A stretch of 64,000 bases of DNA from Uliginosibacterium aquaticum (GTDB lineage: Bacteria > Pseudomonadota > Gammaproteobacteria > Burkholderiales > Rhodocyclaceae). Shown in pieces: positions 1,377-23,949 of this stretch. The translations under genes were made by a program, and so were the position numbers. The number at the start of each line of letters is the position of its first letter. The first letter of the stretch is position 1. The notes under the pieces were generated by a model. It saw nothing but the letters and a program-made list of their open reading frames with translations, searched no databases and was not told the origin of the DNA. The stretch spans positions 1,302,001 through 1,366,000 of the forward strand of contig NZ_JABCSC020000001.1 in NCBI RefSeq assembly GCF_012972705.2, read 5' to 3'.

Positions 1377-2407
1377 GTCTGGCTTCGGACTATGCCCGCC
1401 AGCGCGGGCGGCGTTTCATGTTACTGGTTGTTGGTGCTCTGGTTCTCCTGGCGAGCCTCGCCTGGGATGTGCTCAATGGCCCGGCCGGGCTCGGCTGGCG
1501 TGAGCTGAGCTTGGTGCTGACAACATCCGAACAGCTTGATGTCGGTCTTCGCGTGATCCTGTGGGATATCCGCCTTCCCTTTGCCCTGATGGCGTTGCTG
1601 GCGGGCGCGGCACTGGGGCTCGCCGGCGCTGAATTCCAGACTGCATTGGATAACCCACTAGCCAGCCCGATGACCCTTGGCGTCAGTGCTGCTGCCACCC
1701 TCGGTGCGGCCCTGGTGCTGGTTTTCGATCCGTTGCTGCCGGACGCCATCGAGCAGTACGCGGTGTCCACCGGTGCCTTCGTCGCGGCCATGACCTGTGC
1801 CCTGTTGGTGCAGGCCCTCGGGCGTTTTTTTGGTGGTGGCGCTGGGGCTATGGTGTTGCTGGGGATCACGTTTTCCTTTGCGCTAGAGGCTCTGGTGTCG
1901 CTGGTGCAGTTCGTGGCCGAGGCTGGTGCCCTGCAACAAGTGGTTTTCTGGCGTATGGGTTCGCTGGCGCGGGCAGACTGGCACAAGCTGGCGCTGTTAT
2001 CGGGCGTATTGGTGCTGTGTCTGCTGTGGGCATTGCGTCAGGCCTGGGTGCTGACTGCTTTGTGTGCCGGCGAGGAGCAAGCTCGGGCGCTGGGGATCGA
2101 TGTGGGCCGCCTGCGTCTGCATACCTTGCTGCGTGCCAGCTTGCTGGCTGGGGTGGCGGTGTCGCTGGTGGGGACGATCGGATTCGTGGGGCTGGTGGCT
2201 CCGCATCTGGCGCGTCTGGTGCTAGGCCAGGAACAGCGTCATTTCCTGCCCGGTGCGGCGCTGGCCGGTGCGCTGGTACTGTCACTGGCTTCTATCGCAA
2301 GCAAATCCATCATTCCCGGTCTGATCGTGCCGGTGGGCATCGTCACTGCAATGGTTGGCGTGCCGCTTTTCATTGGCTTGATCCTGTTGCAGCGGAGGGC
2401 CTTGTGA
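1373..2407 (+). CDS. Iron-siderophore ABC transporter permease (FecCD family)
   Basis: This is a 344-residue integral membrane protein with about nine to ten hydrophobic helices. It carries FecCD-family segments: GAALGLAGAEFQTALDNPLA near residue 80, LGVSAAATLGAA, and the C-terminal GFVGLVAPHLARL coupling region near 270. The GTG start overlaps the binding-protein stop by 4 bases. Only one permease gene is present, so the transporter is presumably a homodimer of this subunit (BtuC-like) rather than a FepD/FepG pair. Start choice rests on the overlap and on conserved gene order. Confidence 0.85.
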   Translation: MSLASDYARQRGRRFMLLVVGALVLLASLAWDVLNGPAGLGWRELSLVLTTSEQLDVGLRVILWDIRLPFALMALLAGAALGLAGAEFQTALDNPLASPMTLGVSAAATLGAALVLVFDPLLPDAIEQYAVSTGAFVAAMTCALLVQALGRFFGGGAGAMVLLGITFSFALEALVSLVQFVAEAGALQQVVFWRMGSLARADWHKLALLSGVLVLCLLWALRQAWVLTALCAGEEQARALGIDVGRLRLHTLLRASLLAGVAVSLVGTIGFVGLVAPHLARLVLGQEQRHFLPGAALAGALVLSLASIASKSIIPGLIVPVGIVTAMVGVPLFIGLILLQRRAL

Positions 2408-3207
2408 GTGGGCTGACGATTCATGCGCTGGACGCTGGCTATCGCAAGCACCGCGTCATTCACGCCCTTGATCTGCCGACACTCGCGCCGGGCAGCCTGC
2501 TGGCGCTGGTCGGTGCCAATGCGGCCGGCAAGTCCACACTGCTGCGCACGCTGGCCGGCCTGCTGCCGGCTCAGGGGGGGAGGGCTACTCTGGGAGAGGC
2601 CAATCTACTGTCGCTAGATGCCTTGGAGCGTCGCCGCCTGCTCGGTTACCTGCCGCAGAGCCTGCCTAGTGCGGCATCCTTGTATGCCTGGGAGACGGTG
2701 CAGGCAGCGCTGCGCGCTACGCGCCCCGGGATCTCGCGCCGCGAGGCCGATCGGCTTGGTGAGCAGCTGTTTGAGCGCCTTGGTTTGCAAGCGCTGGCCA
2801 TGCAGCGCATGAACGTGCTGTCTGGCGGCCAACGCCAGATGGTGGGTCTGGCGCAACTGATCGTGCGCGAACCACAACTCTTGCTACTCGATGAGCCGAC
2901 CAGTGCGCTCGACCCACGCTGGCAACTGGAGTTGCTCGGTGCGGTGCGCGAGATGGCGCGCAGCCATGGCTTGATCGCTGTGCTGGCCCTGCATGATCTG
3001 AATCTAGCGTTGCGCTTCTGCGATCGCGTGCTGGTGCTGGGGGAGGGCCGCGTGTTGGCAGAGGGCCGGCCGGCCGAGTTCATGACCCCGGGGGTATTGC
3101 GCGCGGCCTATGGCGTGGAGGGGCGTGTCGAAACCTGTTCCCAAGGCGCGACGGTGGTCTACATCGATCGTGCCTGTCCAAACCCTTCCTTCGGAGCTAT
3201 CGCGTGA
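2404..3207 (+). CDS. Iron-siderophore ABC transporter ATP-binding protein (FecE/FepC class)
   Basis: The 267-residue ATPase shows Walker A GANAAGKST, the signature LSGGQRQM, Walker B LLLLDEPTSALD and a switch histidine in LALHDLN. It energises uptake of the ferric siderophore across the inner membrane. The GTG start at 2404 overlaps the permease stop by 4 bases. A longer in-frame reading back to 2017 lies inside the permease gene and is rejected. The third glycine of Walker A is replaced (GANAAGKS rather than GPNGAGKS), which is common in this subfamily. Confidence 0.88.
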   Translation: MSGLTIHALDAGYRKHRVIHALDLPTLAPGSLLALVGANAAGKSTLLRTLAGLLPAQGGRATLGEANLLSLDALERRRLLGYLPQSLPSAASLYAWETVQAALRATRPGISRREADRLGEQLFERLGLQALAMQRMNVLSGGQRQMVGLAQLIVREPQLLLLDEPTSALDPRWQLELLGAVREMARSHGLIAVLALHDLNLALRFCDRVLVLGEGRVLAEGRPAEFMTPGVLRAAYGVEGRVETCSQGATVVYIDRACPNPSFGAIA

Positions 3208-3509
3208 TCTACCTGCAAGCGAGCTATCCCTGTTCTCAGCCCGGCCGGTTGATCCTCAAACTGTGCAAGCACTTTCGCCACAAGGTGCCGGCCGAGTTCA
3301 GTGCTGAGCGTGGCGAAGTGGACTTTCAGCCCGGCCGCTGCTCGATGCGGGCGGGGGCGGAGAGCCTGCTGATTCTGATTGAGGGTGAGGATGAGCAGGC
3401 GATTGGACGCATGCAGTACATCTTGCTCGATCACGTGCGGCGCATGGAGCGTCGGCCGGATCTGGAACTGGCGTGGGCTGCCGGTGCGGTGCCTGTAGCG
3501 GCGGGATGA
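3204..3509 (+). CDS. DUF2218 family protein
   Basis: This 101-residue cytosolic protein resembles the DUF2218 family: an alpha/beta sandwich with the conserved run LCKHFRHKVP and a later RMQYILLDHVRRM helix. Members occur often next to siderophore genes, but their biochemical role is not established. The GTG start overlaps the ATPase stop by 4 bases, so it belongs to the importer operon. It was checked as a possible MbtH protein: the MbtH signature (NxExQxSLWP) is absent. Confidence 0.7.
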   Translation: MIYLQASYPCSQPGRLILKLCKHFRHKVPAEFSAERGEVDFQPGRCSMRAGAESLLILIEGEDEQAIGRMQYILLDHVRRMERRPDLELAWAAGAVPVAAG

Positions 3510-3543: not shown

Positions 3544-4527
3544 ATGGAATCAATGGTGTTCTTGTGGTGTGGAGGTGTTGTGGCTTTCCTTTTTCGTCTT
3601 GCGGTAATCATGTGTGGCCTCATTGTGTTGAACCCGGTGTCGGCTGCGCTGGAGCCTGTGCCGGTCAGCTGGCAAGCAGCGCAGTTGCCACGCAGCCTGA
3701 GCTTTGAACTCGATTCGAAATATACCGGCCAGCGTTACCGCATCGTGCTGGGGCTGCCTCACGCGGCTGCTCCGGCGGAAGGCTATCCGGTGCTGTGGGC
3801 ACTTGATGGTCTTGCCAGCGTGCCGATCATGGAGTTCGTACGCCCGCGTCCGCTGTTGCCGAGCGATAACGCGGCCTGGCGCGAGAAAATAGGTCATGAG
3901 CCGGCCGGCCTCATCGTCGGTGTCGGCTATGCCAGTGGCGACGCCATGGATGTGAATGGTCGTGCGCTCGATTACACGCCGGCCTTGCCGGCGGGTACCC
4001 GCACCGGCGATCTGTTGTCGGCACGGCATGGTGGTGAAGCGGCTTTCCTCCAGTTTCTCGTTCTGGAGCTGCGTCCGCTGTTGGCACGTCATTTTCCCCT
4101 CGATGCGCAGCGCCATACTCTGTTCGGCTTTTCCTATGGCGGCTTGTTTGCCCTGCAGACACTCAGCACCCAGCCGCAACACTTTCAGCGTTACTGGGCC
4201 GCCAGCCCTTCGGTGTGGTTCGGCGAAGGTCATCTGTTGAAGCATTTTCCGGCACGCCTGAAGACCCTGAGTCTGACGCAGCCCACGCGTCTGATGCTGA
4301 CGGTGGGGCGCGATGAGCAATATCCAGCGAGCTTTGCTTCCGAGGAGACGAAGAAGCGCTTGCAGGTGCGTGCCATGGTCGATAACGCCGAGGCCGTCGC
4401 CGCGTTGCTGCGCGCAGCTGAACTGCCTGCGCTGCAGTTCGACGCGATGATCGTGCCCGGTCATGATCACCATGACATGCTCATGCATGGTGCGAGGCGC
4501 GTCGTCGAGTTTGCCTTTGCGCCCTGA
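3544..4527 (+). CDS. Alpha/beta-hydrolase of the Fes/IroE esterase type
   Basis: The 327-residue protein has a hydrophobic N-terminus (VVAFLFRLAVIMCGLIVL) consistent with a signal peptide or anchor, suggesting periplasmic action. The nucleophile elbow GFSYGG lies near residue 199 and the catalytic histidine is probably in PGHDHHDML near the end, as in the PF00756 esterase family. Homologues cut the ester bonds of catecholate siderophores to release iron or trim the ligand. If the siderophore made here is an amide-linked bis-catecholate, the enzyme may act on imported foreign siderophores or on pathway intermediates. Start is uncertain: ATGs at 3544 and 3553 and several later ones are in frame. 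Confidence 0.72.
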   Translation: MESMVFLWCGGVVAFLFRLAVIMCGLIVLNPVSAALEPVPVSWQAAQLPRSLSFELDSKYTGQRYRIVLGLPHAAAPAEGYPVLWALDGLASVPIMEFVRPRPLLPSDNAAWREKIGHEPAGLIVGVGYASGDAMDVNGRALDYTPALPAGTRTGDLLSARHGGEAAFLQFLVLELRPLLARHFPLDAQRHTLFGFSYGGLFALQTLSTQPQHFQRYWAASPSVWFGEGHLLKHFPARLKTLSLTQPTRLMLTVGRDEQYPASFASEETKKRLQVRAMVDNAEAVAALLRAAELPALQFDAMIVPGHDHHDMLMHGARRVVEFAFAP

Positions 4528-5871
4528 ATGGATCACGCCATGACTGCCACCGCCCAGCGCCTTCCCACCACATCCGCCCAGTACGGCATCTGGGTGGCAC
4601 AGCAGATGTCGCCCGAAAGCCCGGCCTATCTCACGGCGGAGGTTATCGAATTGCGCGGCCTGCTGGATCAGTCAGCGCTGTCCGCCACGGTGGTCGAGGT
4701 GCTGAACCACTGCGCAAGCCTGCATATGCGATTTGAGGCTGATGAGCAGGGCCTGTGGCAATGGCCACGGGTAGCAGCTTGCCCACCGCTCGCTGTGCAT
4801 GACTTCGGCGCGGAAGCCGACCCGCAGGCTGCTGCACAGGCCTGGATGAAGCAATCCCTGGCCGTGCTGTGCGATCCATCGCGCGATGTGTTGTATCGCA
4901 CGGTGCTGTTGCGCCTGGGTGAGGCCCAGCACCTGTGGTATCTCCAGGTGCATCACATTGCGCTGGACGGATTCGGCTATAGCCTGCTGTGCCAGAGCGT
5001 GGCCGAGCGCTACAGCGCTCGTGTCCGGGGGGAGGTACTCGCCGCGTTGCCGGATTGGTCACTGGGTAAGGTCTTGCAGGCCGAACAAGTCTATCGCGAA
5101 ACGGGTCAGTTCCTTCGCGACCAGGCTTTCTGGAGCACCCATCTGATGGATGTACCGCCACCGGCGCGCATCGATCCGGCGCAGAATTTCTGTGATGAGG
5201 TTCGCCGCTGCGCCACGCGCCTTAGCGGAGCCGAACTCGACGCCTTGCGTGCTGCCGCGCAAGCCTGCGGGCAGGATTGGGGGAGCTGGATGCTAGCTGC
5301 CATCGGCTTGTGGCTGGCGCGCCACTCTGGCCAGCGCTCACTTACTTTCGGCATGCCGGTGATGAACCGCCTTGGCACCCCAGCCCTCGGTGTGCCCTGC
5401 ATGGCCATGAATATCCTGCCGATGAGTCTGGTGCTGGGTGATGCACCCAGCATGTTGGTACTGAGCCGGCAGATCGCACAGCGCATGCGCAGCATCCGGC
5501 CGCATCTCTACTACCGCTATGGCTGGATCCGGATGGACCTGGGCCTCATGGCGCAGGGCAAGCACCTGTTCAATCAGGCCGTGAACCTGCTGCCGTTTGA
5601 CCGTAGTGCGCCCTTCACGGGGCTGCAGGCCACGATCCATCCGGTCACTGCCGGGCCGGTAAAGGATCTCAATATCAGTGTCTTTGTGCTGAATGCCGAA
5701 TGGCAGTTGCGTACCGAGGCCAACCCGGCCGCCTACGACGAAGGGCGTCTGCAGGCCCTGCATGAGGATTTGCTCGGCTGGCTGCGACAGCTTGCTGTGC
5801 TACCGGCGCAGCAGGGGCTGGATGCTTTGTTACCACAAGGGATGGGCGCCAGCGCGGAGGCGCTGCCATGA
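4528..5871 (+). CDS. Free-standing NRPS condensation domain
   Basis: The 447-residue protein is a lone condensation domain with HHIALDG (catalytic second His at residue 143) and the late RFGMPVMNR-type region (FGMPVMNRLG). No adenylation or carrier domain follows. It is clearly related to the condensation domain of the NRPS at 11127: both open with a Q-GIW---Q---P-SPAY pattern and share VPCMAMNI. It should join a carrier-bound 2,3-dihydroxybenzoyl group to an amine. ATG 4528 follows the esterase stop directly; ATG 4540 is an alternative. It ends 25 bases from the convergent exporter gene. Confidence 0.85.
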   Translation: MDHAMTATAQRLPTTSAQYGIWVAQQMSPESPAYLTAEVIELRGLLDQSALSATVVEVLNHCASLHMRFEADEQGLWQWPRVAACPPLAVHDFGAEADPQAAAQAWMKQSLAVLCDPSRDVLYRTVLLRLGEAQHLWYLQVHHIALDGFGYSLLCQSVAERYSARVRGEVLAALPDWSLGKVLQAEQVYRETGQFLRDQAFWSTHLMDVPPPARIDPAQNFCDEVRRCATRLSGAELDALRAAAQACGQDWGSWMLAAIGLWLARHSGQRSLTFGMPVMNRLGTPALGVPCMAMNILPMSLVLGDAPSMLVLSRQIAQRMRSIRPHLYYRYGWIRMDLGLMAQGKHLFNQAVNLLPFDRSAPFTGLQATIHPVTAGPVKDLNISVFVLNAEWQLRTEANPAAYDEGRLQALHEDLLGWLRQLAVLPAQQGLDALLPQGMGASAEALP

Positions 5872-5896: not shown

Positions 5897-7126
5897 TCAG
5901 GACTGGTGTGATGCCGATGCCGCCAGCGGGGCTCTGGCTGCTTCCACGCTACGGTGCCGCTGCAGGCGCCCAAGCAGGATGGGCACCAGCAGGGCACCGA
6001 AGAGTGTCAGCGAGGCGAGTTCGGCGGTGTGCTTGAGTGGGCCGCCGGTGTTGCCAAGGACTAGTGCGGCGAAACCGGAGGCCAGCGCCACGCCGAGATC
6101 CTGCACGAGTTTCAGCAAGGCCATGAAGCCGGCTCGTTCCGGTGGGGCGGGGATCAGGCTCAATGTGGCAGCGAGGCTTACATTGCGCGCCGCATTGCCG
6201 GCCATGAACAGAATGAAACATAGCGTGGCGGGCAGTGCCATCACGTCAAAGAAGGGCAGCAGACCAAGGCTGAAGGCCAGGCTGGCCAGGATGATCGGCA
6301 GGCGTGGGCCACGCCGGTCGCAAGCGTGCCCGGCCAGTTGCATGGTGATCAGGGCCACCACGCCCCCGCCAAGGTAGAGCAGGCCGAGGCGCCCACGCGG
6401 GAAGTTGAGATTGAGCAGGTAGAAGGCTGCGAAGTTCGGAATCACGAGGAAGGCTGTGAACTGGTTGATCCCCTGCAGCAGGCTGGCTGCGCGTACTGCA
6501 GGGCGCATGAGTAAGCGCAGCGGAGCGGGGCGGGCAGGGCCGGCAAGGTGGGCGCGCTGCGCGGGCAGCAGGCCTGCTGCACTCAAGCATAGCGCCAGTG
6601 CCAAGCCGGCGATACACAGGAAAGGGGCTTGCCAGCCGAGGCGCGCGGACAGCTCTAGTGATAGCGGAATGCCGGCAATGGTGGCCAGCGCGAAACCGCC
6701 CATGACCCGGGCGATGGCGCTGCCGCGCTGCGGTGGTGGTGTGTTATCGATCAGGATGGTCATGCCGCTGGCAATGGCCGGAGCGGCGAAGAGGCCGGCG
6801 GCGGTGCGCGCGATCAGTAGGGTGACGAAACTCTGTGAGGCAGCGCAGGCCAGCAGGGCGGTAGTCAGTCCGGTCAGGCTCGCAAGCAGGGCGTGGCGAC
6901 GATCGAAGCGATCGAGGCGGGTCATGGCTGCGAGGCCGGCGAGCAGCGAAGCCGTGGTGTAGGCCGCTGTCAGCCAGGCTACCTGATTGGCCTGGAAGCC
7001 GAGTGCGGCAGCTAGATCCGGACCGAGTGGCAGGACCAGCATGAAGTCGAGGACGTATATGCATTGCAGGGCGCCGATGAGCAGCAGCAGGCGGTGAGGG
7101 GGCAGTGCTTGGTGTGTATTTGTCAT
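5897..7126 (-). CDS. MFS exporter, EntS-like (probable siderophore efflux)
   Basis: The 409-residue protein has about twelve hydrophobic helices typical of the major facilitator superfamily, with the loop motif RLDRFDRRHALLAS between helices 2 and 3. Its place between the two siderophore operons, divergent from entC, suggests export of the finished siderophore across the inner membrane. The ATG at 7126 is preferred: the reading frame open upstream to 7261 is polar and covers the Fur-box promoter region. Specific substrate is inferred from context. Confidence 0.75.
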   Translation of the reverse strand: MTNTHQALPPHRLLLLIGALQCIYVLDFMLVLPLGPDLAAALGFQANQVAWLTAAYTTASLLAGLAAMTRLDRFDRRHALLASLTGLTTALLACAASQSFVTLLIARTAAGLFAAPAIASGMTILIDNTPPPQRGSAIARVMGGFALATIAGIPLSLELSARLGWQAPFLCIAGLALALCLSAAGLLPAQRAHLAGPARPAPLRLLMRPAVRAASLLQGINQFTAFLVIPNFAAFYLLNLNFPRGRLGLLYLGGGVVALITMQLAGHACDRRGPRLPIILASLAFSLGLLPFFDVMALPATLCFILFMAGNAARNVSLAATLSLIPAPPERAGFMALLKLVQDLGVALASGFAALVLGNTGGPLKHTAELASLTLFGALLVPILLGRLQRHRSVEAARAPLAASASHQS

Positions 7127-7232
7127 GGTCTCTGTCGGGAGTGGGCGGGGCGTTCTTGCTGGGATGTTGTTAATGCTTTGGGGGCTCCATTGGGTTGATC
7201 TAAGTCTTGATGCTAATGGCCTTAAATACGAT

Positions 7233-7247
7233 TGCGAATAGTTATCA
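7233..7247. promoter_or_regulatory. Candidate Fur box between the exporter gene and entC
   Basis: TGCGAAT-A-GTTATCA is a 7-1-7 inverted repeat close to the Fur consensus; the right half is an almost exact consensus half-site (TGATAAC on the other strand). It lies in the 227-base divergent intergenic region, 106 bases from both the exporter start and entC. Iron-dependent control of both operons is therefore likely. Found by eye. Confidence 0.55.
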
Positions 7248-7353
7248 GTTAACGTTAGCATAACCTTGCTGGTTGAACGGGGTATGCATTTATGACGTAT
7301 GCCCTTTGAGTGAGTGGTGGGGTGCGAAGCGCCCGTGATTCTCAGGAGGGTGT

Positions 7354-8571
7354 ATGAACTATCCGTACCGGGAGCTGGACGCGCAGGAGTTTCCCGCTCC
7401 TACCGGGCCACAGGCCTTGTTCAATCACTACGGCAGCGAGGCTTGCATGTTTGCCTCGCCGGGCCAGACCCTGCTGGCCCACGGTGTGGCTGCGTGCCTT
7501 CCGATTGGTGAAGCGGGGGATCTTGCCATCCGTGCCATGGGCTTCCTGCGGGAAGCCAGTCAGGCGGGGCATGCTGGCCTTCTGGTCGGTGCCATTCCGT
7601 TTCTGCCCGAGGCTCCGCCCTATCTTTTCGTGCCGCAGCATTTCGAGCTGGCGGGTGGGGGACGTCAGATGCTTGCCGCTGAACTGAGCCCGCGCAGCAG
7701 CGTCGAGGTCTGGGCCGAGAGCCTGCCGAGCGAGGCACGTTACGAGCAGAACGTAACGGATGCGCTGACGCAGATCGCTGCTGGGAAACTTCAGAAGGTT
7801 GTTCTCTCTCGCGCCTTGCGCGTCCAGGCAGAGTTGCAACTGCCGAGCCTGCTGCGTGCGCTGGCCAGTCGGAATCCGCGTGGCTACACCTATGCTGTGC
7901 CCTTGCCGGAAGCAACTGAGGGCGGGGCGCGTAGTCTGGTGGGCGCCAGTCCGGAACTGCTGCTGGCACGCAGGGGAGGCCATGTGATCTCGAATCCGCT
8001 GGCGGGCTCGATTCCGCGCAGCAATGATGCGGAGGAGGACGAACGTCGTGCTCAGGGCTTGTTGCGTTCGGCCAAGGATCTGCATGAGCATGCGCTGGTT
8101 GTTGATGCGGTTGCCGCTGCTTTGAGACCCTACTGTCATGAACTGGTGGTGCCAGCCTCGCCTTCATTGGTGGCGACGCCGACCATGTGGCATCTCTCCA
8201 GCGAAGTGTGCGGTGAGCTGCGCGATCTCTCCACCAGCTCGCTGGAATTGGCGCTGGCATTGCATCCGACACCCGCAGTGTGCGGATATCCGCGTGACGT
8301 AGCGCGCGATTTCATCTGCGAGAGCGAGGGCTTTGAACGTGGTTTTTTCACCGGCCTAGTCGGCTGGTGCAACGTGCTTGGTGATGGTGAATGGGCTGTG
8401 ACGATACGTTGCGCCGAAGTCAGCGCGCATGCCGCCACCCTGTATGCCGGGGCAGGCATTGTGGAGGGTTCCGATCCGGCTCTCGAGCTTGCCGAAACGG
8501 CGGCCAAGCTGCGCACCATGCTGGGTGCTATGGGGCTGACGCTCGGGACAACACTGGAGGCACGGGCATGA
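7354..8571 (+). CDS. entC: Isochorismate synthase (EntC/DhbC)
   Basis: The 405-residue enzyme converts chorismate to isochorismate, the first step of 2,3-dihydroxybenzoate formation. It carries the chorismate-binding family blocks: [19 protein letters not shown], the NPLAGS segment, PTPAVCGYP and the C-terminal [12 protein letters not shown] strong AGGAGGGTGT site directly precedes the ATG. The stop overlaps the start of entE by 4 bases (ATGA). It heads the entC-E-B-NRPS-A operon and is probably iron-regulated from the upstream Fur-like site. Confidence 0.93.
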
Positions 8572-10217
8572 GTGGCTCATCCGCAGCGGAAGGCGCTGAT
8601 TTCACCCCCTGGCCAGCCGAGTTCGCGGCGCGCTATCGGGAAGCTGGCTACTGGCGTGGGGAGCCGCTGGACCAATTGTTGCGCGATAGCGCACGGCGCC
8701 ATGGCCCGCGCACGGCGCTGGTCTGCGGTGCACGGCGGTGGACTCATGCCGAGCTTGATGCGCAGGTGGATCGCGTTGCGGCCGGCCTAGTGCGCCTGGG
8801 GCTTGCTGCTGGAGACAAAGTGGTGCTGCAACTGCCCAATGTCGCCGAATTCGTACTGGCAGTGTTCGCACTGTTCCGCCTCGGTGCGCTGCCAGTCTTC
8901 GCCTTGCCCGCGCATCGACGCAGTGAGATCGCCTATTTCTGCAGCTTCACTGAGGCCAGAGCACTGATCGTGGCAGACCGCCATGGTGGCTTCGACTATC
9001 GTTCGCTGGCGCGCGAAGTGTGCGCCGAACTGGGTGACAAGGCAGCGCTGACACACATCATCGTGGTCGGTGAGGCGGAAGAATTTACGTCCTTCGTGGC
9101 GCTGGATGCCGAGCCGGTTGCGCTGCCCGCACCGGCGGCCGACGGGCTGGCCTTCCTTCAGCTCTCCGGCGGCAGCACAGGACGGCCCAAGCTGATCCCG
9201 CGCACCCATGACGACTATTACTACAGCGTGCGGGCCAGTGCAGAAATCTGCGCGCTCGATGCTGAAAGCACCTATCTGTGCGCGCTGCCGGTGGCGCACA
9301 ATTTTCCGATGAGTTCCCCTGGCATTCTGGGAGTGCTGCATGCCGGCGGTTGTGTCGTGCTGGCGCCGGACGCCAGCCCGGACACGGCATTCCCGCTGAT
9401 TGAACGTGAAGGCGTCACGATTACTTCACTGGTGCCGCCGCTGGCGCTGGTGTGGATGGAGGCTGCCGCCACACGGCGTGGCGAGCTGAGCAGTCTGCGC
9501 CTGCTGCAGGTTGGGGGCTCGCGGCTCAGCGATGAGGCGGCGCGGCGGGTTCTGCCCGTCCTGGGCTGTCACCTGCAACAGGTGTTCGGCATGGCCGAAG
9601 GCCTGGTCAATTACACCCGCGACGATGACGAAGATGCTCTGGTGATCGGCACGCAGGGCCGCGCCATCTCACCTGACGACGAAGTGCGCGTGGTCGACGA
9701 CGATGACCGGGATTTGCCTGACGGCGAGGCGGGTCATCTTCTTACGCGCGGGCCCTACACCATCCGCGGTTACTTCCGTGCCGATGTTCACAATGCCCGT
9801 GCCTTCACCGCCGACGGTTTCTATCGCACCGGGGATATCGTGCGCCGCCTGCCCGGCGGTTATCTGGTCGTTGAGGGACGCGGCAAGGATCAGATCAACC
9901 GGGGTGGGGACAAGGTGGCGGCCGAGGAGGTGGAGAACCACTTGCTGGCTCATCCGGCCGTGCTCGATGCCGCCGTGGTGGCGATGCCTGATGCCTATCT
10001 TGGCGAGCGCAGCTGCGCCTTCATCGTGCCGCGTGGCGAGATTCCCCGCGCCATGGAGATAGCGCGCTTCATGCGCGAGCGCGGCTTGGCGCAATTCAAG
10101 TTGCCGGATCGCATCGAATTCGTGACGCATTTTCCCAAGACCGGCGTTGGCAAGATCGACAAACGCGCCCTGCGCGAACAGGTGGCGCAGAAGCTGTCTG
10201 CTGCCCGGGCTGGCTGA
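8568..10217 (+). CDS. entE: 2,3-dihydroxybenzoate-AMP ligase (EntE/DhbE)
   Basis: This 549-residue stand-alone adenylation enzyme activates 2,3-dihydroxybenzoate with ATP and loads it onto the aryl carrier domain of EntB. It shows the P-loop-like [16 protein letters not shown], the [13 protein letters not shown] region typical of aryl-acid ligases, YRTGDIV, and the C-terminal catalytic lysine region [13 protein letters not shown]. The ATG at 8568 overlaps the entC stop by 4 bases; the frame open back to 8391 lies inside entC and is rejected. The lysines of the A3 and A10 motifs are both intact, unlike the A3 of the NRPS downstream. Confidence 0.93.
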
Positions 10218-10258: not shown

Positions 10259-11125
10259 ATGGCCATTCCCCGTATTGCGACCTACGCCATGCCAGCTGTG
10301 GCTGATTTCCCTGCCAATCGCGTCCAGTGGCATGCCGAGCCCAAGCGCGCAGCGCTGCTGATCCATGACATGCAGCAGTATTTTCTCGATTTCTACGACA
10401 CGACGGCCGCGCCGATTCCGCAACTGGTCGCCAACGCCCTGCGCTTGCGCGAGAGCTGTGATGCAGCCGGCATTCCTGTCTTCTACACCGCGCAGCCAGC
10501 CGTACAGCCCGCTGCGGATCGGGCCCTGCTCAACGAGTTCTGGGGGCCTGGCCTGCCGGCCAGGCCGGAGGGGGCGCCGATCATTGCCGAGCTAGCACCG
10601 CACGCGCATCACACGGTGCTCGACAAGTGGCGCTACAGTGCCTTCGTGCGCAGCGACCTGCTCGAGCGCCTGCGCGCGCAAGGTCGCGATCAGCTGATCG
10701 TGTGTGGCGTGTATGCCCATATCGGCTGCCAGGTCACGTGCGTAGATGCTTTCATGCGTGACATCCAGCCCATCCTGGTTGGCGATGCGCTGGCCGATTT
10801 CGGACCCGAGCGCCATGCGCAGGCGCTGGACTATGTCGCTCAACGCGCTGGCAGCGTGTGGAGCACCGAGCAGGTGCTTGCTGCGCTCGGTACGAGCCTG
10901 CCAGCCAGCATTGATGCACTGCACGCCGAAGTGGCGAAGCTGCTGGAGATGCCCCAAGCCGAGCTGGCACCGGAAGACAATCTGCTCGATGCAGGTCTTG
11001 ATTCGATCCGCCTGATGACTTTGCTGGAGCGCTGGAAGCGTGCTGGGGCGCAGCTCAGCTTCGTGCAGCTGGCTGAGCAGCCAAGCATTGCGCATTGGTG
11101 GACCCTGCTGCCCGGGAGCCGCTGA
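10259..11125 (+). CDS. entB: Isochorismatase with aryl carrier domain (EntB)
   Basis: The 288-residue bifunctional protein has an N-terminal isochorismatase domain with the catalytic Asp in [10 protein letters not shown], Lys in DKWRYSAF and the GVYAHIGC block. The C-terminal aryl carrier domain has the phosphopantetheine Ser249 in [10 protein letters not shown]. It makes 2,3-dihydro-2,3-dihydroxybenzoate and then carries the activated aryl group to the condensation domains. Similarity to E. coli EntB is high throughout. A 41-base gap separates it from entE and only 1 base from the NRPS start. Confidence 0.95.
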
Positions 11126-11126
11126 G

Positions 11127-14100
11127 GTGGGCGTCAGTGAGGCGATCGATGCGCGTTTGCCGCTCAGCCCTGCGCAGCTGGGGATCTGGCTGGGGCAGCA
11201 GCTTGATCCACTGAGCCCTGCATACTGGACAGCAGAGGCCGTTGAACTGCAGGGCGCGCTGGATCTTGCGGCCTTCGGACAGGCGCTGACACAGGCCATT
11301 TCCGATTGCGAGGCATTGCACATGCGCTATGTGGCCGAGGCTGGCGAGGTGTGGCAGATCCGCACGCCGGCGCATTGGGCTTTGCGACATGTGCTGCTCG
11401 ATAGCGGCGGGGCCGCCTCTCCGGAGGCGGCCTGGGAGGCGGCCTGGAGCTGGCTGCAGGATGATCTGCAAACTGTGCCGGGTCTGGAGCAGGGGCCTCT
11501 GTTCGCAACGGCATTGCTGCGCCTTGGCCCGACGCGCCACCTGTGGGTGCTGCGCGTGCATCACGTAGCGCTGGATGGCTACGGCTATGCCTTGCTGCTG
11601 CGCCGAGTTGCAGCCTTGTATTCAATATGGGTCGGTGGCGCTGCTTCGCCTGAGGCAGACCCACCCCGCGCGCGTCTGGCGGCGGTGCTGCAAGAAACGC
11701 AGGTCTATCAGCAAGCAGTTGCGGGGGTTGATCGCGCGTTCTGGCTGGAGCGTCTCCGGGATGCCGCGCCACCGGTCACCTTGGCACCGGCTGCGCCGCT
11801 GGCGCGCGGTGTGCGTCGCCTGCGCGGTGAGCTGTCGTCAGCACAGCTGGCACAGTGGCAGGCTGCCGCCCGGGTCTGCGGTGTGGACTGGGCTGCCTGG
11901 CTGCTGGCCGCGATAGCCGCTTGGCTGGCGCGCAATACCCAGGCAAGCGAGGTGACATTGGGGGTACCAGTCATGACGCGCCTGGGTTCTCAGGCGCTGA
12001 GCGTGCCCTGCATGGCCATGAATATCGTGGCCTTGCGCCTGCAGATCGATCACCAGCAAGGCATGGCGGCGCTGGCTGCGCGCGTGGCAGGCGAACTACG
12101 CGCCGTGCGTCCGCATCAGCGCTATCGCTATGAATGCTTGCGCCAGGATCTTGCTGCGCAGCGCGATGGCGTCGCACGTACGCAAGCCTTGTTCGGCCCG
12201 GTAGTGAATCTGATGCCTTTCGAGCGTCCGGTAGCTTTCGGCCCGCTGCGGGCGCGCCAGCTTCCGGTGTCCGCCGGGCCGGTGGAGGATCTGTCGATCA
12301 GCATCGTGCCGCATGAGAGTGGTGTGCGCGTCGATTGCGAGGCCAACCCAATGGCCTATGACGATACGCTGCTGTCGAGCTTGCGAACAGGGCTTGTCGA
12401 AGCGCTTGATGTGCTGAGCGCGGCTGCGCAGGGGGCACCGCTGCACGCCCTGCTGGCCGGGCCTCCACTCTCCATTGTCGATGGCACGCCACTTCCGCAG
12501 CAGGAGGATGTGCTGGCTGCGCTGCGTGCTCACGCTGCGCAGATGCCTGATGCAGCGGCCATCGAGCATTGCGGCCAGCGCCTTGACTATGGCGAGTTGC
12601 TGACCCAAGTGCAACAACTCGCCGCCGAACTTGCATGGCGTGGCGTGGGCCCGGAGAGCCGGGTTGCGGTGTTGTTGCCGCGTGCGCCGCAGACTGTGGT
12701 GGCCTTGCTGGCGATCCTATGGGCTGGCGGTGCTTATGTGCCGCTGGACCCGGACAGCCCGACTGAACGCATCGCCATGGTGCTGGAAGATGCCGAGCCA
12801 GCCATGCTCCTGACTCATCGAGCGTATGCCGAAACGATCAATGCGAGCATGCCTGTCTTGTTCCTCGATACCTGGCAACCCGCCCCTGACGCACCGGGCC
12901 TGCTCGAGCCACAGGGGCTGGCTGCCGATGCGCTGGCTTACATGATCTATACCTCGGGCACGACCGGGCGTCCCAACGGCGTGATGATCCCGCGTGAAGC
13001 TCTGGCGCATTTCGTGGCGGGTGCACGCGAGCGCTATGCCATGCGTGCAGCCGATCGTATGCTTCAATTCGCGCCGCTGCATTTCGATGCCAGCGTGGAA
13101 GAGATATTCGTGACTCTTTCCAGTGGCGCCTGTCTTGTGCTGCGCACTGAGGCCATGCTGGAGTCCGTGCCCGCCTTCCTGGCGGCCTGTGAGGCGCAGC
13201 GCATCAGCGTGCTGGATTTGCCGACCGCCTTCTGGCATGAGCTCGCCTACAGCCTGGGCCCGCAGACCACGCTGCCTGCCAGCTTGCGCCTGACCATCAT
13301 TGGCGGTGAAGCCGCTCTGGCTGAGCGGGTGTTGCGCTGGAGAGCACAAGCGCCGGCCGCCAGCGTGCTGCTCAATACCTATGGCCCGACCGAGACCACG
13401 GTGATCTGTACCACGGCTGAACTGGCCGGCCCGGCTGCCTTGCACTGGGAAGGCGAGTCGGTGCCCATCGGCACCCCCTTGCCGGGCCTGCGCGCGGTAG
13501 TGGTGGATGCGGCGCTGCAGCCGGTGCGGCATGGCGAAAGCGGCGAGCTGTGTCTCATCGGCGGCGCACTGGCGCGTGGTTACTACGGTCGCGAAGCCGT
13601 GACGGCGGCGCGATTCGTGCGCCTGGAAAGCCTGCCCGGAGCGCCGCGTGCCTACCGCACGGGAGACCGCGTGCGTCTGCGCGAGGACGGCGCGCTGGTC
13701 TATCTCGGACGGCTCGACGAAGAGTTCAAGATCAGCGGCTATCGCATTGATCCCAGCGAGATCGAAACGGCGCTGCTAGCGTGTGCAGGGGTGCGCGAAG
13801 CGGCTGTGCTCGGACAGGTGCTGGCCGGGGGCAGCAAGCGCCTGGTGGCCTTCATCGTCATGGAAGATGGCGGAGGACTGCGGCCTACCGATCTGCAGGC
13901 GCAGCTTGCGCGTACGCTTCCTGCGCCGGCCGTGCCAGGGTGCTACCTCGGTCTTTCCTGTCTGCCGCGCAATGCCAACAACAAGATTGATCGGGCCGCG
14001 CTGCGTGTGCTGGCTGAGCAGGATGCGGCAGCCTCTGTCCGGCTGATGGAGGATACAGCCGGGGCTGGCAACGCACTGGAGCAATGCGTGATGGCCGTGT

Positions 14101-15086
14101 GGCGCGAGGTGCTGGGTGTAAGCGAAATCACTCTTGAGAGTGATTTCTTCGCTCTGGGCGGTAAATCCTTGCAGGCTATCCAGGTTGCCAACCGGCTTGG
14201 CATTGCCTTGCAGCGTGAGGTACCTGTCTCCAGTCTGTTCCGTCATCCCGGTGTGGCAGCGCTGGCGGCAGCGCTGGATTTTCCGGTGGGGCATGAACCA
14301 CCGGCGCGACAGGATCCCTTCGCTCCACTGTTGTGTTTGCAGCCCGGCGAGGGGCCTGCGTTGTTCTGCATCCATCCGGCCGAGGGGCTCTCCTGGTGTT
14401 ACATGGGCCTGGCTGCCCATCTGCGTCGGATGCCGATCTATGGTCTGCAGGCGGCCAGCCTCAGCGGCCCACAGGCGCCAGACATCTCTCAGGCGCTGAC
14501 GGCTTATCTGGCCTGCGTACGCAGTGTTCAGCCGCATGGCCCGTATCACTTTCTAGGCTGGTCTTCGGGTGGTGGCATTGCGCATGCGCTGGCCGCCAGG
14601 CTGCAGGCAGCGGGCGAACAGGTCAGCTTGCTGGCGATGATGGATGCCTATCCCAGCGACATCTGGGCGGGCAAGCCGCCACCCAGCGAACGCGATGCAC
14701 TCATTACGCTGCTTGACGTGATTGGGGATGCCGCCGTGGCGCCAGATGGCCGCCCGCTGGAGGTCGATGAAATGCGTGCTCGCCTTGCCAGGCCCGGCAG
14801 CAGCCTGGCCGTGGCAGGGGAGGGCAGGCTGGCGCATCTGGCGCAGATGAGCATTGAATCGATGCTGTTGTATCGCCAGCTTCGCCACCCTGTTTTTGTT
14901 GGTGAAGTGTTGTTCTTCCTCGCAGCCCAGCGGGCGCTCGATGCGCCGGACTGGCGACTATGGCAGGCCTATGTACAAGGGGAAATCGACAAGGTGGATA
15001 TCGCCTCCACCCATAACGGCATGAGCCGGCCTTTGCCGCTGGCGCATATCGGCCGCGTGCTGGCGGCCAGACTGGAGCAGGCATGA
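11127..15086 (+). CDS. Single-module NRPS (C-A-T-TE), EntF-like architecture with non-serine pocket
   Basis: The 1319-residue protein has a condensation domain (HHVALDG, His146), an adenylation domain (about 460-960), a carrier domain (GGKSL, Ser1014) and a thioesterase (GWSSG, Ser1146). By motif alignment to GrsA the pocket reads D654, A655, E658, A701, I725, G727, T751, V759, I760, K953. This is not the serine pattern; an acidic residue at the third position is usual for basic amino acids. The A3 lysine is Asn617 (TGRPNG); the A10 lysine is present. The GTG at 11127 follows the entB stop by one base; the open frame back to 11040 overlaps entB and is rejected. It should couple dihydroxybenzoyl groups to an amino acid and release the product. 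Confidence 0.88.
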
Positions 15087-15868
15087 GTCATCAGGATTTC
15101 AGTGGGCAGGTGGCACTGGTCACCGGTGCCGCACAGGGGATTGGCGCTGCGGTGGCAGAGGCGTTGGCGCAGCGCGGTGCGCATCTGGTGTTGCTGGATC
15201 GCGATGAGGAGGGGCTGCAGAGGCAGGCAAGCGCTTTGCGGCAACTCGGCGCCGATGTACTGATACGCGCGCTGGACCTGCATGACGCAGGGGCGATTGA
15301 GGCGGCGGTGGCGACGGTTCAGGCGCACTTTGGTCGTATCGACCTGCTGGTCAACGTGGCCGGCGTGCTACATGCTGGGGATACCACGGAGCTCAGCGAT
15401 GAGGCATGGGAGGATAGCTTCGCCATCAATACCACAGCGGTGTTCCGCCTGTGCCGCGCAGTGAGTCGCCACATGCTCGCACGAAGCAGCGGCACCATCG
15501 TGACGGTGGGCTCCAATGCTGCGCATGTTCCGCGTCTGGGGATGGCGGCGTATGCCGCCTCGAAGGCTGCTACCGCCCACCTCATGCGTTGCCTGGCACT
15601 GGAGCTTGCACCGCACGGCATCCGCTGCAACACAGTGTCGCCGGGCTCTACCGATACCCCCATGCAACGCGCCTTTGCGCCCACATCGGAGCATGTCGAA
15701 ACGGTCTTGCGCGGCGCCCCGGAGCGCTACCGTGTGGGGATCCCTCTGGGGCGCATCGCGACGCCGCAGGATATTGCTGAGGGGGTGTGCTTCCTTGCAT
15801 CGCCACAGGCGCGCCATATCACCATGCATGATCTGCTCATCGACGGCGGAGCGACGCTGGGAGCTTAG
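15083..15868 (+). CDS. entA: 2,3-dihydro-2,3-dihydroxybenzoate dehydrogenase (EntA)
   Basis: This 261-residue short-chain dehydrogenase has the NAD-binding TGAAQGIG motif near residue 15, the NVAG block and the catalytic YAASK with an upstream Ser. It oxidises 2,3-dihydro-2,3-dihydroxybenzoate to 2,3-dihydroxybenzoate. The ATG overlaps the NRPS stop by 4 bases, the last gene of the operon. Function within the SDR superfamily is assigned from the operon, where all other DHB steps are present. It converges on the phosphopantetheinyl transferase with a 4-base overlap. Confidence 0.9.
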   Translation: MSHQDFSGQVALVTGAAQGIGAAVAEALAQRGAHLVLLDRDEEGLQRQASALRQLGADVLIRALDLHDAGAIEAAVATVQAHFGRIDLLVNVAGVLHAGDTTELSDEAWEDSFAINTTAVFRLCRAVSRHMLARSSGTIVTVGSNAAHVPRLGMAAYAASKAATAHLMRCLALELAPHGIRCNTVSPGSTDTPMQRAFAPTSEHVETVLRGAPERYRVGIPLGRIATPQDIAEGVCFLASPQARHITMHDLLIDGGATLGA

Positions 15869-16608
15869 AGCGCAGGGGCGGGCAGCAAGGGGCCGCGCCA
15901 CAGGCATAGCGCGGCGGCGTAGCCTGCGGGCACCGCCAGCGGCCACAGACCGCAAGCCTCCAGCGGCTGACCGAGATGGCTCACATGAATGCGTGCTGAA
16001 GCGGTTGGGGCAGGGGTGATGCTGAAGTGCACGAGATGCTCCCCGATTCCCCAGCCGAGCGCCTTGCAGATGGCCTCCTTGGCGGTCCAGTAGCGATAGA
16101 AATCCGGTGCGCTCAACGATGGTGTGTGGCGGGCGCGTTCGCCTGGCGAAAGCAACTGCAGGGCCAGTGCATCAAGCGGGCGGTTAGGGTCCTGCTGCTC
16201 GATGTCTATGCCTAGCGGGCCTTGCTCGGAGATCGCTAGGAGCGCGTAGCGCGAGGCATGCGAGACATTGAAATGTACTTTACCGGCCCCGCTTCCTGGC
16301 GCCAGCTCGGGCTTGCCGTGCGAAGCACTCTGCAGGCGTATGGCTTCTGGCGTGATATCCAGGTGGGCCCCCAGCAGTTGTTTCAGACAGGCCCGGCTAA
16401 GAGCGAAACGTTGTTGGTCCGCACTGTGCCTGAATCGTTCCAGATACTGATGCTCCTGTAGGGTCAGAAACGGCAGTGCTTGCTCGAGATGGCGAGATGC
16501 AATATCCAGATCAAGCAGAAAAATCTGTACGAGGTCAGAGACATCCTGCGGCACGTCGAGGCGGGATAGTCCTGGCGTTGATTCTGAGGGGGGCTGCGTG
16601 CCAAACAT
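15865..16608 (-). CDS. 4'-phosphopantetheinyl transferase, Sfp/EntD type
   Basis: The 247-residue enzyme moves phosphopantetheine from CoA to the carrier serines of EntB and the NRPS. Visible motifs are VHFNVSHASRYALLA, GIDIE (magnesium-binding) and WTAKEAICKALG. ATG 16608 is chosen because sequence upstream of it in the same frame (to 16800) is Arg/Gln/His-rich and does not look like this family. It is transcribed against the ent operon. It is probably the activating enzyme for this siderophore, although such enzymes can also serve other carriers. Confidence 0.88.
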   Translation of the reverse strand: MFGTQPPSESTPGLSRLDVPQDVSDLVQIFLLDLDIASRHLEQALPFLTLQEHQYLERFRHSADQQRFALSRACLKQLLGAHLDITPEAIRLQSASHGKPELAPGSGAGKVHFNVSHASRYALLAISEQGPLGIDIEQQDPNRPLDALALQLLSPGERARHTPSLSAPDFYRYWTAKEAICKALGWGIGEHLVHFSITPAPTASARIHVSHLGQPLEACGLWPLAVPAGYAAALCLWRGPLLPAPAL

Positions 16609-17008
16609 GCGGAGGGCGCAGCGGTAGCTCGCTGCATGACGAAGTTGAAACTGTCTTGATGCTATCTGGTTTAGTGGTGCACGAACAATCATAGCCCGTG
16701 GCTGTAGGCCTAGTTTCCTGCATGGCTTCGCGCTTAATTCGTCCCTTGTTTGAGCACTATGACGTTGTTGGTAACGACTTTCTCGCAGTAGTCTGCCCAA
16801 TCGACCATCAGATGAATGCGTTTAGGCCAAAGCTTGCGGTTTTGATCCCCCTTTAAGAGCCAACGGAAGCATGCTCTGCCAGAACTATGGCAGAACATCC
16901 AAGAGAGAATCCTTGCTATTGCGCTTGCCGATGCGCGTAGTACAACACCTGCTTTTCGGCCAGAACGGTCATTCGACTAGTAGGCCGGCTCGGTCTGCAA
17001 TGTGTCCC
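16609..17008. other. Intergenic region without a recognisable gene
   Basis: About 400 bases between the transferase start and the end of the pirin-like gene. It should hold the promoter of the transferase. No convincing Fur-like repeat, RNA gene or terminator was seen by eye. Confidence 0.5.
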
Positions 17009-21273: not shown

Positions 21274-22172
21274 CCTGCGTAGGCCAGTGGTCATCGGCCG
21301 CGTTGAAACAGTTTTCCGATGCTGGCGAGGCCAGGGCCGATTGTCCGAAATGGCCGACGTGCCGACACCGGGCTGTAGTTCCGGACGACAGCTTCAATGA
21401 GGAAGCTGCCGCTTGAGGTACGGAATAGCGAATGTCCGAAGTGGGTTAAGTAGCCAAAACGCCTAGACTACATTCGCTCACACGGCATCTAGTAGTTCTT
21501 CATGGCACTTCTGCCAATAGATGCGCCCGCGACCAAGCGCAAACATAGCGCACCAGCCGGACGACTCTTTTACAAAGCTGCCATCTGACCGAGCCCTTCG
21601 CAGTTGAACGCCGTCGCATAGTCTATGCGTGCAGATCGGCCACAGAAGCACCGATGGCGTCCGCCCTAGCTGATCGCTCCCACTTAAAGCAGCCATCACG
21701 TATCTGGCATTGGGGGGCAAACGGCGTCACAGCGAAACAGTGGCTTGCCATAGTCGCTTGAGCAGTACGGCTCTCCGGGAAGAAGAGGATTGACCTACCG
21801 TGCACCATAGCCTTCGCATCGTGGCCAGATCGGGGCAGCCTGTCGGAGTTCGATGGTGTTGTATCCACAACAGCGTTTGATTTGATGCGAAGCGCATTTC
21901 CGATCGTCGGATTTTTATGCCGTTTGTCGGCTTGTTCGGTGTGTTGTCCTGCTACTACGATGTGCGTAAGGGATAACCCGGGTTCGCGTTTGGCAGGCTG
22001 AGTCCCTTAGCGTGCCTAGTTTGCACGCAAAGCCCCACTACACAAGGGACCTACATCCCATTGGGTGCTGCACAAAAAACACCTCATTGTTGGCTTGGTT
22101 TTATATGGAAGCTTGTAAAAAATACCTTTAGCATCATAAGTTGTTAAAAAAAACCAAAAGAAGTCTCTTGTG
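21274..22172. other. Gene-poor 900-base region upstream of cdiB
   Basis: Small minus-strand frames (for example 21478-21720 and 21623-21868) are open but lack convincing ribosome binding sites and recognisable protein features. The last 150 bases become AT-rich, with oligo-T and oligo-A tracts around 22080-22160, probably the cdiB promoter and a silencing target. No tRNA or att-like sequence was recognised. It may contain a decayed gene. Confidence 0.4.
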
Positions 22173-23882
22173 ATGCGTGCTGGGTTATGGAAGTGGGGTT
22201 TGGGGGGATGTGCTGTCCTGATGTCGGTTGCAAGCTTCGCGCAGATTCCTGTCGATGTTGATCGGAATGCACGAGAGCAGTTGCTGCGACAGGAGCGCGA
22301 GCGTGCGCTTCGGGAGGAGCAGGAACAACGCCCGGATGTTCGTCTGAATCCGCCCAAGCTTGATGCAGGCGGGGTAATACCAGATGAAGTGCCGTGTTTC
22401 CCGATCGACCGAATCCGCTTGTCAGGTGAGGGGGCCGAGGGATTCGACTGGGCGTTGAGCAGTGCCTCGGAGCCTGGAGACCTAGCAACAGGCCGTTGTC
22501 TTGGAGCGCAGGGCGTCAATGTCGTGATGTCCCGGATCCAGAATGCGATCGTCAAACGCGGGTTCATCACGACGCGTGTTCTGGCTGGCGATCAGGATCT
22601 CAAGCGTCGCGAACTTGTGTTGACGATTGTGCCGGGCCGACTGAGTCAGATCCGTTTTGATGGCGCTGAGCTTCCAGTCTCTGCCGAGAATGCAATTCCG
22701 CTTGCATCGGGAGATCTGCTGCAACTGCGCGCGATCGAACAGGGGCTTGAAAACTTCAAGCGCGTGCCCACCGTGGATGCGGATATCCAGATAGTCCCAG
22801 CCACGGGCAGCCAGGCGCTTGCAGGAGAGAGCGACCTGCTGGTCAGCTGGAAACAGGCGCGCAAGTTCAGACTCAGCCTCACCGCGGACGATGCAGGGAG
22901 CCGTGCAACAGGCAAGAACCAGGGCGCGGCGACGCTTTCGCTGGACAATCCGCTCACCCTTAGCGATCTCTTCTACGTTTCCTATAACCACGCATTGGCG
23001 CCGTTGAATTCGGACGGACGCAGCACGGATGGTTACAGCGTTCACTACTCGCTGCCGATTGGTTTCTGGACTCTGAGCAGCAACTTCAGCGACAGCAACT
23101 ATTCGCAGACGGTTGCGGGGGCAAGCCAAGCGTATGTCTACAGCGGAAAGAGCCAGAACGCAGAAATCAAGCTCGGGCGGATACTGCTCCGGAATGCCAC
23201 CAGTAAAACCTCTGCTGCAATGCGCGGCTGGAGCAGGGCGGCATCAAGCTTTGTTGATGACACGGAAATCCTGGTCCAAAAACGACGTACTGCGGGCTGG
23301 GGGGCGGAGCTCAATCACCGAGCCTTTCTCGGTAAAAGCACGCTCGACATGACTTTTGACTATCGCCGAGGGACCGGGGCCATGACCTCCCTTGAAGCGC
23401 CAGAAGAGTCATTGGGGCAGGGCACCAGTCGCATGGAGCTGATGGGCTTCAACGCACAGCTGGACATTCCTTTTTCTGTGGCTGAGCAGAGGCTTCGCTA
23501 CATGGGCTCGTGGCGTCAGCAGTGGAACCGCACCCCCTTGACCTCGCAGGACCGCCTTTCGATCGGCAATCGCTACACCGTTCGTGGGTTTGACGGAGAG
23601 CTGACCCTGATGGGCGAGCGCGGTTTCGTTTCCCGAAACGAGTTCGCGCTGAGCCTGGGAGCGCTGGCGAGCGAGGGCTACTGGGCGCTCGACTATGGGC
23701 GGGTGATGGGCTTTCCTACTGCAGATCAGCTCGGACGCTCTTTGTTGGGCACGGCGATCGGTTTGCGAGGCGCTTTGAAAGGCGTGTCGTATGACGTTTT
23801 TGTGGGTGCGCCAGTCGATAAGCCCAGCCAGTTCAAGACGGCAGGTGTGACGGCTGGTTTCAATCTCGCCTGGTCTTACTGA
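22173..23882 (+). CDS. cdiB: Two-partner secretion outer-membrane transporter CdiB (ShlB/FhaC family)
   Basis: The roughly 569-residue protein starts with a signal peptide (WGLGGCAVLMSVASFA), then a Q/R/E-rich plug-linker helix, a POTRA_2 segment (CFPIDRIRLSGEGAEGFDW, near residues 70-150), a second POTRA ending near 215, and a 16-strand beta-barrel to the C-terminal aromatic residue (FNLAWSY). The conserved barrel motif VRGFDGE near residue 477 matches the VRGY loop that guides secretion. It exports the CdiA protein. A GTG three bases earlier is an alternative start. Confidence 0.92.
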   Translation: MRAGLWKWGLGGCAVLMSVASFAQIPVDVDRNAREQLLRQERERALREEQEQRPDVRLNPPKLDAGGVIPDEVPCFPIDRIRLSGEGAEGFDWALSSASEPGDLATGRCLGAQGVNVVMSRIQNAIVKRGFITTRVLAGDQDLKRRELVLTIVPGRLSQIRFDGAELPVSAENAIPLASGDLLQLRAIEQGLENFKRVPTVDADIQIVPATGSQALAGESDLLVSWKQARKFRLSLTADDAGSRATGKNQGAATLSLDNPLTLSDLFYVSYNHALAPLNSDGRSTDGYSVHYSLPIGFWTLSSNFSDSNYSQTVAGASQAYVYSGKSQNAEIKLGRILLRNATSKTSAAMRGWSRAASSFVDDTEILVQKRRTAGWGAELNHRAFLGKSTLDMTFDYRRGTGAMTSLEAPEESLGQGTSRMELMGFNAQLDIPFSVAEQRLRYMGSWRQQWNRTPLTSQDRLSIGNRYTVRGFDGELTLMGERGFVSRNEFALSLGALASEGYWALDYGRVMGFPTADQLGRSLLGTAIGLRGALKGVSYDVFVGAPVDKPSQFKTAGVTAGFNLAWSY

Positions 23883-23901
23883 ACCCGCTGCATTTTTTTT
23901 G

Positions 23902-23935
23902 GCCGCCCGATTTTTTGTGGCGGCGTTTTCGTTTT
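23902..23935 (+). terminator. Terminator-like hairpin between cdiB and cdiA
   Basis: GCCGCC (23902-23907) pairs with GGCGGC (23919-23924) across an 11-base loop with six Ts, followed by GTTTTCGTTTT. It sits in the 67-base gap before cdiA and could act as a partial terminator or attenuator. Read by eye; strength not calculated. Confidence 0.5.
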
Positions 23936-23949
23936 GAGTCGAGTGGCAA

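Follow-up and report, generated by a model that had tools for sequence, protein, structure and literature searches.

A probable protochelin-type catechol siderophore cluster with a lysine-type synthetase and a free-standing condensation domain in Uliginosibacterium aquaticum

Azotobacter vinelandii, a nitrogen-fixing bacterium of soil, produces the catechol siderophores aminochelin, azotochelin and protochelin (PMC10669500), and the aminochelin/azotochelin/protochelin cluster is catalogued as MIBiG BGC0002528 (cited in PMC13106412). Azotochelin, N2,N6-di(DHB)-L-lysine according to the title of a published reference, contains lysine, and the synthetase of A. vinelandii should accordingly load this amino acid. 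In the accessible literature, outside which most subscription journals fall, we found no assignment of the enzyme that makes aminochelin in A. vinelandii, although one may have been reported.

Several related systems have been described. Myxochelin synthetase MxcG loads lysine, condenses DHB with both lysine amines and releases its product through a reductase domain (PMC8400222). Cepaciachelin, the azotochelin-putrescine amide, is made by Chromobacterium violaceum, and aminochelin has been reported in Methylophilus sp. 5, an identified cepaciachelin maker (PMC13251462). The cepaciachelin cluster of Burkholderia ambifaria is described as having two NRPS genes, encoding a lone adenylation (A) domain and a Cstarter-A-TE protein, with the synthetase predicted to load lysine (PMC4906002). 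VibH, the free-standing condensation (C) domain of the vibriobactin system, gave aminochelin in an engineered Escherichia coli pathway (PMC5635690), showing that a free-standing C domain can perform this chemistry. Lysochelin synthesis in Lysobacter uses a condensation enzyme that couples DHB with spermidine (PMC11233812); this is a misfit for a lysine synthetase, and the system was rejected as a model.

The window, meaning the whole 64,000-nucleotide stretch of U. aquaticum DNA analysed here, carries a cluster that we read from sequence comparison as a protochelin-type catechol siderophore cluster, with a probability of about 0.68 for the pathway as a whole. The cluster adds a further member to a pathway type already known and does not represent an unknown pathway. 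Its features are as follows, in window coordinates unless a locus is named.

Locus L083 13056–14039, reverse: AraC-type regulator gene, its 5′ end inside the window's first 38 bases
270–1376, forward: Fe-siderophore periplasmic binding protein (PF01497, 50 bits)
1373–2407, forward: FecCD permease (PF01032, 243 bits)
2017–3207, forward: ABC ATPase (PF00005, 91 bits); the true start is probably later, the Pfam match beginning at residue 155
3204–3509, forward: DUF2218 protein (PF09981, 79 bits)
3544–4527, forward: esterase with a hydrophobic N-terminus (PF00756, 57 bits)
4528–5871, forward: free-standing C domain of 447 aa with HHIALDG intact (PF00668, 172 bits)
5897–7261, reverse: MFS exporter (PF07690)
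7354–8571, forward: isochorismate synthase, EntC/DhbC (TIGR00543, 274 bits, above cut-off)
8391–10217, forward: 2,3-DHB-AMP ligase, EntE (TIGR02275, 792 bits, above cut-off); the gene probably starts later, the model match beginning at residue 70
10259–11125, forward: isochorismatase with aryl carrier protein, EntB (PF00857 and PF00550)
11040–15086, forward: NRPS of C-A-T-TE order with the lysine-type pocket DAEDIGTVI-K (Pfam domains, pocket alignment, TE triad)
13086–13406, forward: stretch of the A domain holding pocket residues D683 to I789 (alignment)
15083–15868, forward: 2,3-dihydro-2,3-DHB dehydrogenase, EntA (TIGR04316, 333 bits, above cut-off)
15865–16800, reverse: phosphopantetheinyl transferase (PF01648 and PF22624)

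An initial annotation of this DNA had placed EntA, EntB, EntC and EntE beside a single C-A-T-TE module, and both statements stand: homologues of all four, including the aryl carrier of EntB, were recovered by Pfam and TIGR models, and the protein of ORF 11040–15086 has its Pfam domains in that order (C 40–457, A 496–849, T 1017–1079, TE 1107–1234). The A-domain match is the AMP-binding domain at residues 496–849, and the stretch 12975–13985, on which the annotation had centred, sits on the A-domain core. Translation of the synthetase probably begins at a GTG near 11127, directly past the end of EntB at 11125. The MFS protein scores 184 bits against the MxcK model, below the cut-off of 525. No TonB receptor was found among the nine upstream ORFs of L083 or the window ORFs scanned. 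No Fur-box-like site stands out within the cluster, where the best match is 12/19; across the whole window two sites reach 13/19 (18090 and 32157) against 0.4 expected, both outside the cluster.

We read the specificity pocket from a MAFFT alignment to GrsA residues 234–337, the GrsA letters having been verified against 1AMU. The residues are D683, A684, E687, D726, I753, G755, T780, V788 and I789 in the numbering of ORF 11040–15086, and the tenth is Lys982 within the A10 motif NKIDR, which gives the full code DAEDIGTVI-K. The string proposed earlier, D-A-E-A-I-G-T-V-I-K, was numbered 29 residues below ours and is right in nine of its ten letters, but its fourth should be D: the residue taken there, 701 (ORF 730, the Ala of LPTAFWH), was the wrong one, and the equivalent of GrsA Thr278 is Asp726 (nucleotide 13215). 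GrsA positions 299 and 301 had likewise been read one residue late, with the letters unchanged. The same annotation held that the pocket does not fit serine, and our control agrees with it. Read with the same script, E. coli K-12 EntF gives DVWHFSLVD, which matches the window at two of nine positions and differs at seven; the serine pocket DVWHxS is absent from the window synthetase.

Pockets were read in 61 rows, of which 51, the window included, were kept after ten re-fetched copies had been dropped; L001 and L009, both the window's own, were left out, as were L052–L054 and L056, which had no qualifying A-domain frame. The form DAED(I/L)G(T/S)(V/I)(V/I) accounts for 40 of the 51 rows, with seven of serine type and four others, though these rows were mostly collected by similarity to the window synthetase and so are not unbiased or independent frequencies. 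Within that form we counted 25 DAEDIGTVV, eight DAEDIGTVI, four DAEDIGSII, two DAEDIGSVI and one DAEDLGTVV. DAEDIGTVI is common to the window, A. vinelandii, two Collimonas, two Massilia, Leptothrix and genome G056, and all myxobacterial rows read DAEDIGTVV bar one from Sorangium (DAEDLGTVV); DAEDIGTVV also occurs in a Chloroflexales MAG and in Jeongeupia. A text search of the accessible literature found no occurrence of the six DAEDIG pocket strings.

Set against the azotochelin and myxochelin systems, the window pocket is identical to that of A. vinelandii, with 70% identity over the A domain, and lies one residue from the MxcG form common to most myxobacterial rows, with 51–55% A-domain identity. 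We consider it very likely, from these alignments, that the window synthetase loads lysine and not serine. MxcG and EntF are the siderophore models that it matches best among the curated NCBIfam models, at 1186 bits (cut-off 2300) and 601 bits (cut-off 2400), respectively; both scores fall below their cut-offs, and the MxcG score is about twice that for EntF. Unlike MxcG, with its C-terminal reductase, the window synthetase ends in a thioesterase whose Ser, Asp and His are all kept when aligned with EntF. Myxobacterial matches stop near query residue 1070–1091, ahead of the TE, and the one Myxococcus xanthus row examined lacks the TE motif. The earlier proposal of a product of the azotochelin/myxochelin kind, released by a thioesterase, is thus supported by the lysine pocket shared with those systems, by the retained TE triad and by the best relative, the A. 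vinelandii locus.

That relative came from a pattern-based scan for synthetase homologues, with one genome per species, which returned 44 loci. A. vinelandii CA ranked first (67% identity), with Massilia, Collimonas, Leptothrix and Chromobacterium next. Plasmid relatives amounted to four records at E 1e-150, the best at 51% in Eleftheria terrae. The A. vinelandii and window clusters share eight core genes at 61–76% identity (MFS 61%, EntC 69%, EntE 73%, EntB 74%, NRPS 67%, EntA 76%, esterase 64%, free-standing C 63%), a level of similarity that makes transfer of the cluster between lineages likely. Gene arrangement differs: in A. vinelandii the genes for the esterase and the free-standing C follow entA, whereas in the window both lie upstream of the MFS gene and come after an ABC uptake operon, no gene of which found a match in the flanks fetched for A. 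vinelandii.

The free-standing C domain at 4528–5871, which adjoins the esterase, had gone unmentioned in the initial annotation. It scores 347 bits against the MxcG model over residues 10–430, under the whole-protein cut-off, and aligns with 194 bits to 7C1H, which we take to be a starter C domain, 173 bits to EntF and 89 bits to the amide synthase 1L5A, presumably VibH. Its sequence is therefore nearer EntF and 7C1H than 1L5A and lends no support to orthology with VibH. The two share a free-standing form and HHxxxDG, and by analogy the window protein would be expected to act as VibH does, linking DHB on its carrier to a free diamine; their roles would be similar and their origins probably separate.

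Among the 29 loci listed of 55 searched, only A. vinelandii and the window have a free-standing C domain of this type, the A. vinelandii protein starting at a Met within a longer open frame and measuring about 432 aa; the fetched flanks of close synthetase relatives in Collimonas, Massilia, Leptothrix and Chromobacterium have none. Searches at E ≤ 1e-75 matched 6 of 399 genomes order-wide (eight places, of which only the window's and that of genome G084 are in frames of free-standing size), 1 of 369 class-wide (the window's own genome), 1 of 4 in the genus of A. vinelandii (A. vinelandii itself) and 1 of 5 in the family of G084 (G084 itself). At 1e-15, all 20 chosen genomes gave a match, mostly inside long synthetase frames; weakly similar frames of free-standing size or shorter occur in Collimonas humicola (518 aa, 28%), Serratia (497 aa, 29%) and Chromobacterium vaccinii (258 aa, 31%).

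In a C-domain tree of 33 rows that did not include VibH, the synthetase C domains of the window and A. vinelandii pair together (98/94). The free-standing C domains of the window, A. vinelandii and G084 form a clade with a synthetase C domain of genome G106 (100/100, inner order open), and sister to this clade of four stand the C domains of five Chromobacterium synthetases (nine rows together, 100/100). The deeper order is unsure, since nine of the 30 inner forks are open and long branches occur in three rows. In G106 (L072 9705–14802), an esterase 52% identical to that of the window directly precedes a full synthetase that bears this C type (62%) and has the pocket DAEDIGSII. Because this C type is there part of a full synthetase that immediately follows a related esterase, the comparison suggests that the free-standing C is a remnant of a second synthetase. 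More tentatively, and at somewhat less than even odds, it may be an aminochelin synthase derived, independently of VibH, from a second cepaciachelin-type synthetase that lost A-T-TE. In G084 (L073 3683–9612) the free-standing C has a TonB receptor, an esterase and an AraC regulator in its vicinity and lies on a different contig from the G084 synthetase. By sequence, G084 is a further candidate protochelin producer.

In the proposed pathway, EntC, EntB and EntA would produce 2,3-DHB, which EntE would load onto the aryl carrier of EntB. The C-A-T-TE synthetase would load L-lysine and acylate both of its amines with DHB to give an azotochelinyl thioester. This double acylation by a single C domain is proposed by analogy with MxcG, which acylates both lysine amines, so that a second C domain is not needed for azotochelin. 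The free-standing C would instead move DHB to putrescine to form aminochelin, a role that we infer by comparing gene content with products for A. vinelandii and for the cepaciachelin clusters, a small number of cases. The TE could then release azotochelin by hydrolysis, protochelin by transfer onto aminochelin or cepaciachelin by transfer onto putrescine. Given the free-standing C, tris-catechol protochelin appears the likelier end product, with azotochelin as an intermediate or co-product, and we regard protochelin as moderately likely. From their families, the MFS protein would serve export and the binding protein, FecCD permease and ATPase uptake, and the esterase may process the ferric complex. 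Putrescine supply in the host is plausible: two places in its genome match PF02784 above cut-off, although this family also covers lysine-pathway decarboxylases and the matches are not proof.

A different outcome, which we consider unlikely though worth weighing, is that the cluster ends at cepaciachelin or azotochelin and that the free-standing C helps to acylate one lysine amine or is redundant. It draws on the synthetase relatives in Collimonas, Massilia, Leptothrix and Chromobacterium, whose fetched flanks have no such domain, and on the tree position of the free-standing C as sister to C domains of synthetases from five Chromobacterium species, which are linked to cepaciachelin through their genus, C. 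violaceum being a maker (PMC13251462). Synthetase C domains presumably act on carrier-bound lysine, and grouping with them fits this outcome too; moreover, aminochelin in the cepaciachelin maker Methylophilus sp. 5 implies that a free-standing C may not be required for aminochelin. The cepaciachelin/chromobactin clusters of B. ambifaria, Methylophilus and Chromobacterium also share with the window the DHB genes and one C-A-T-TE synthetase with a lysine-type pocket (DAEDIGSII or DAEDIGSVI in Chromobacterium against DAEDIGTVI here). Yet MxcG needs only one synthetase C to acylate both lysine amines (PMC8400222), as, by described gene content, does the B. ambifaria cluster (PMC4906002), and the nearest free-standing relative found for this domain is that of A. 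vinelandii, a protochelin producer. The five Chromobacterium loci and the one published description, that of B. ambifaria, contain no free-standing C of this type, while the window has one; these few cases are the basis for setting it apart from cepaciachelin-type clusters.

Two further alternatives concern the synthetase substrate. A glutamate at position 239 of the pocket accommodates basic side chains generally, and activation of ornithine, 2,4-diaminobutyrate or arginine would yield an azotochelin analogue; with a pocket identical to that of the A. vinelandii enzyme, whose product contains lysine, and 70% A-domain identity to it, this seems very improbable. We give almost no credence to enterobactin or another serine/threonine macrolactone, despite the EntA, EntB, EntC and EntE homologues, the single C-A-T-TE module and the nearby esterase, and we rejected it on the A pocket, which departs from the EntF control at seven of nine positions, and on the MxcG and EntF model scores. 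Serine-type EntF homologues do occur in the genus: three of its eight genomes match the synthetase at 1e-100, namely the window's own and two of the seven others (G006 and G001), whose 36%-identical homologues (L003 and L004) have the serine pocket DVWHFSLVD. The genus thus seems to vary in catechol siderophore type.

By 16S rRNA, the host is betaproteobacterium-like: over 901 bases its identity with Massilia and Collimonas is 89%, while Jeongeupia, G056, G084 and G106 reach 88% and A. vinelandii 85%; four of the 11 genomes compared gave no match. Elsewhere in the window, a ShlB/FhaC-type transporter gene (22170–23882) is followed by an ORF of 3246 aa (together within 22170–33690), perhaps a two-partner secretion pair.

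The host genome also encodes nifHDK (L088 6743–10850, contig C10) and a second nifHD (L089 8889–11359, contig C6), about 158 kb past the window's end on the same contig. No nifK was found at the second site among the five of 16 listed L089 ORFs scanned; nearby, L089 5825–6580 encodes a protein of the dinitrogenase FeMo-cofactor family. Both nifD copies score as molybdenum type, and an alternative nitrogenase was rejected. Molybdenum is reported to regulate azotochelin in A. vinelandii, and azotochelin can bind it (PMC9694258). It is possible, as speculation, that the siderophore of this nifHDK-bearing genome also serves molybdenum supply or metals beyond iron.

A locus that looks enterobactin-like is thus now predicted to be an azotochelin/protochelin locus, one that lies outside Azotobacter in a betaproteobacterium-like genome with nitrogenase genes. 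If the proposed role of the free-standing C is correct, this domain would mark tris-catechol (protochelin) as against bis-catechol (cepaciachelin) clusters, and its presence or absence would offer a simple, testable rule for telling the two apart.
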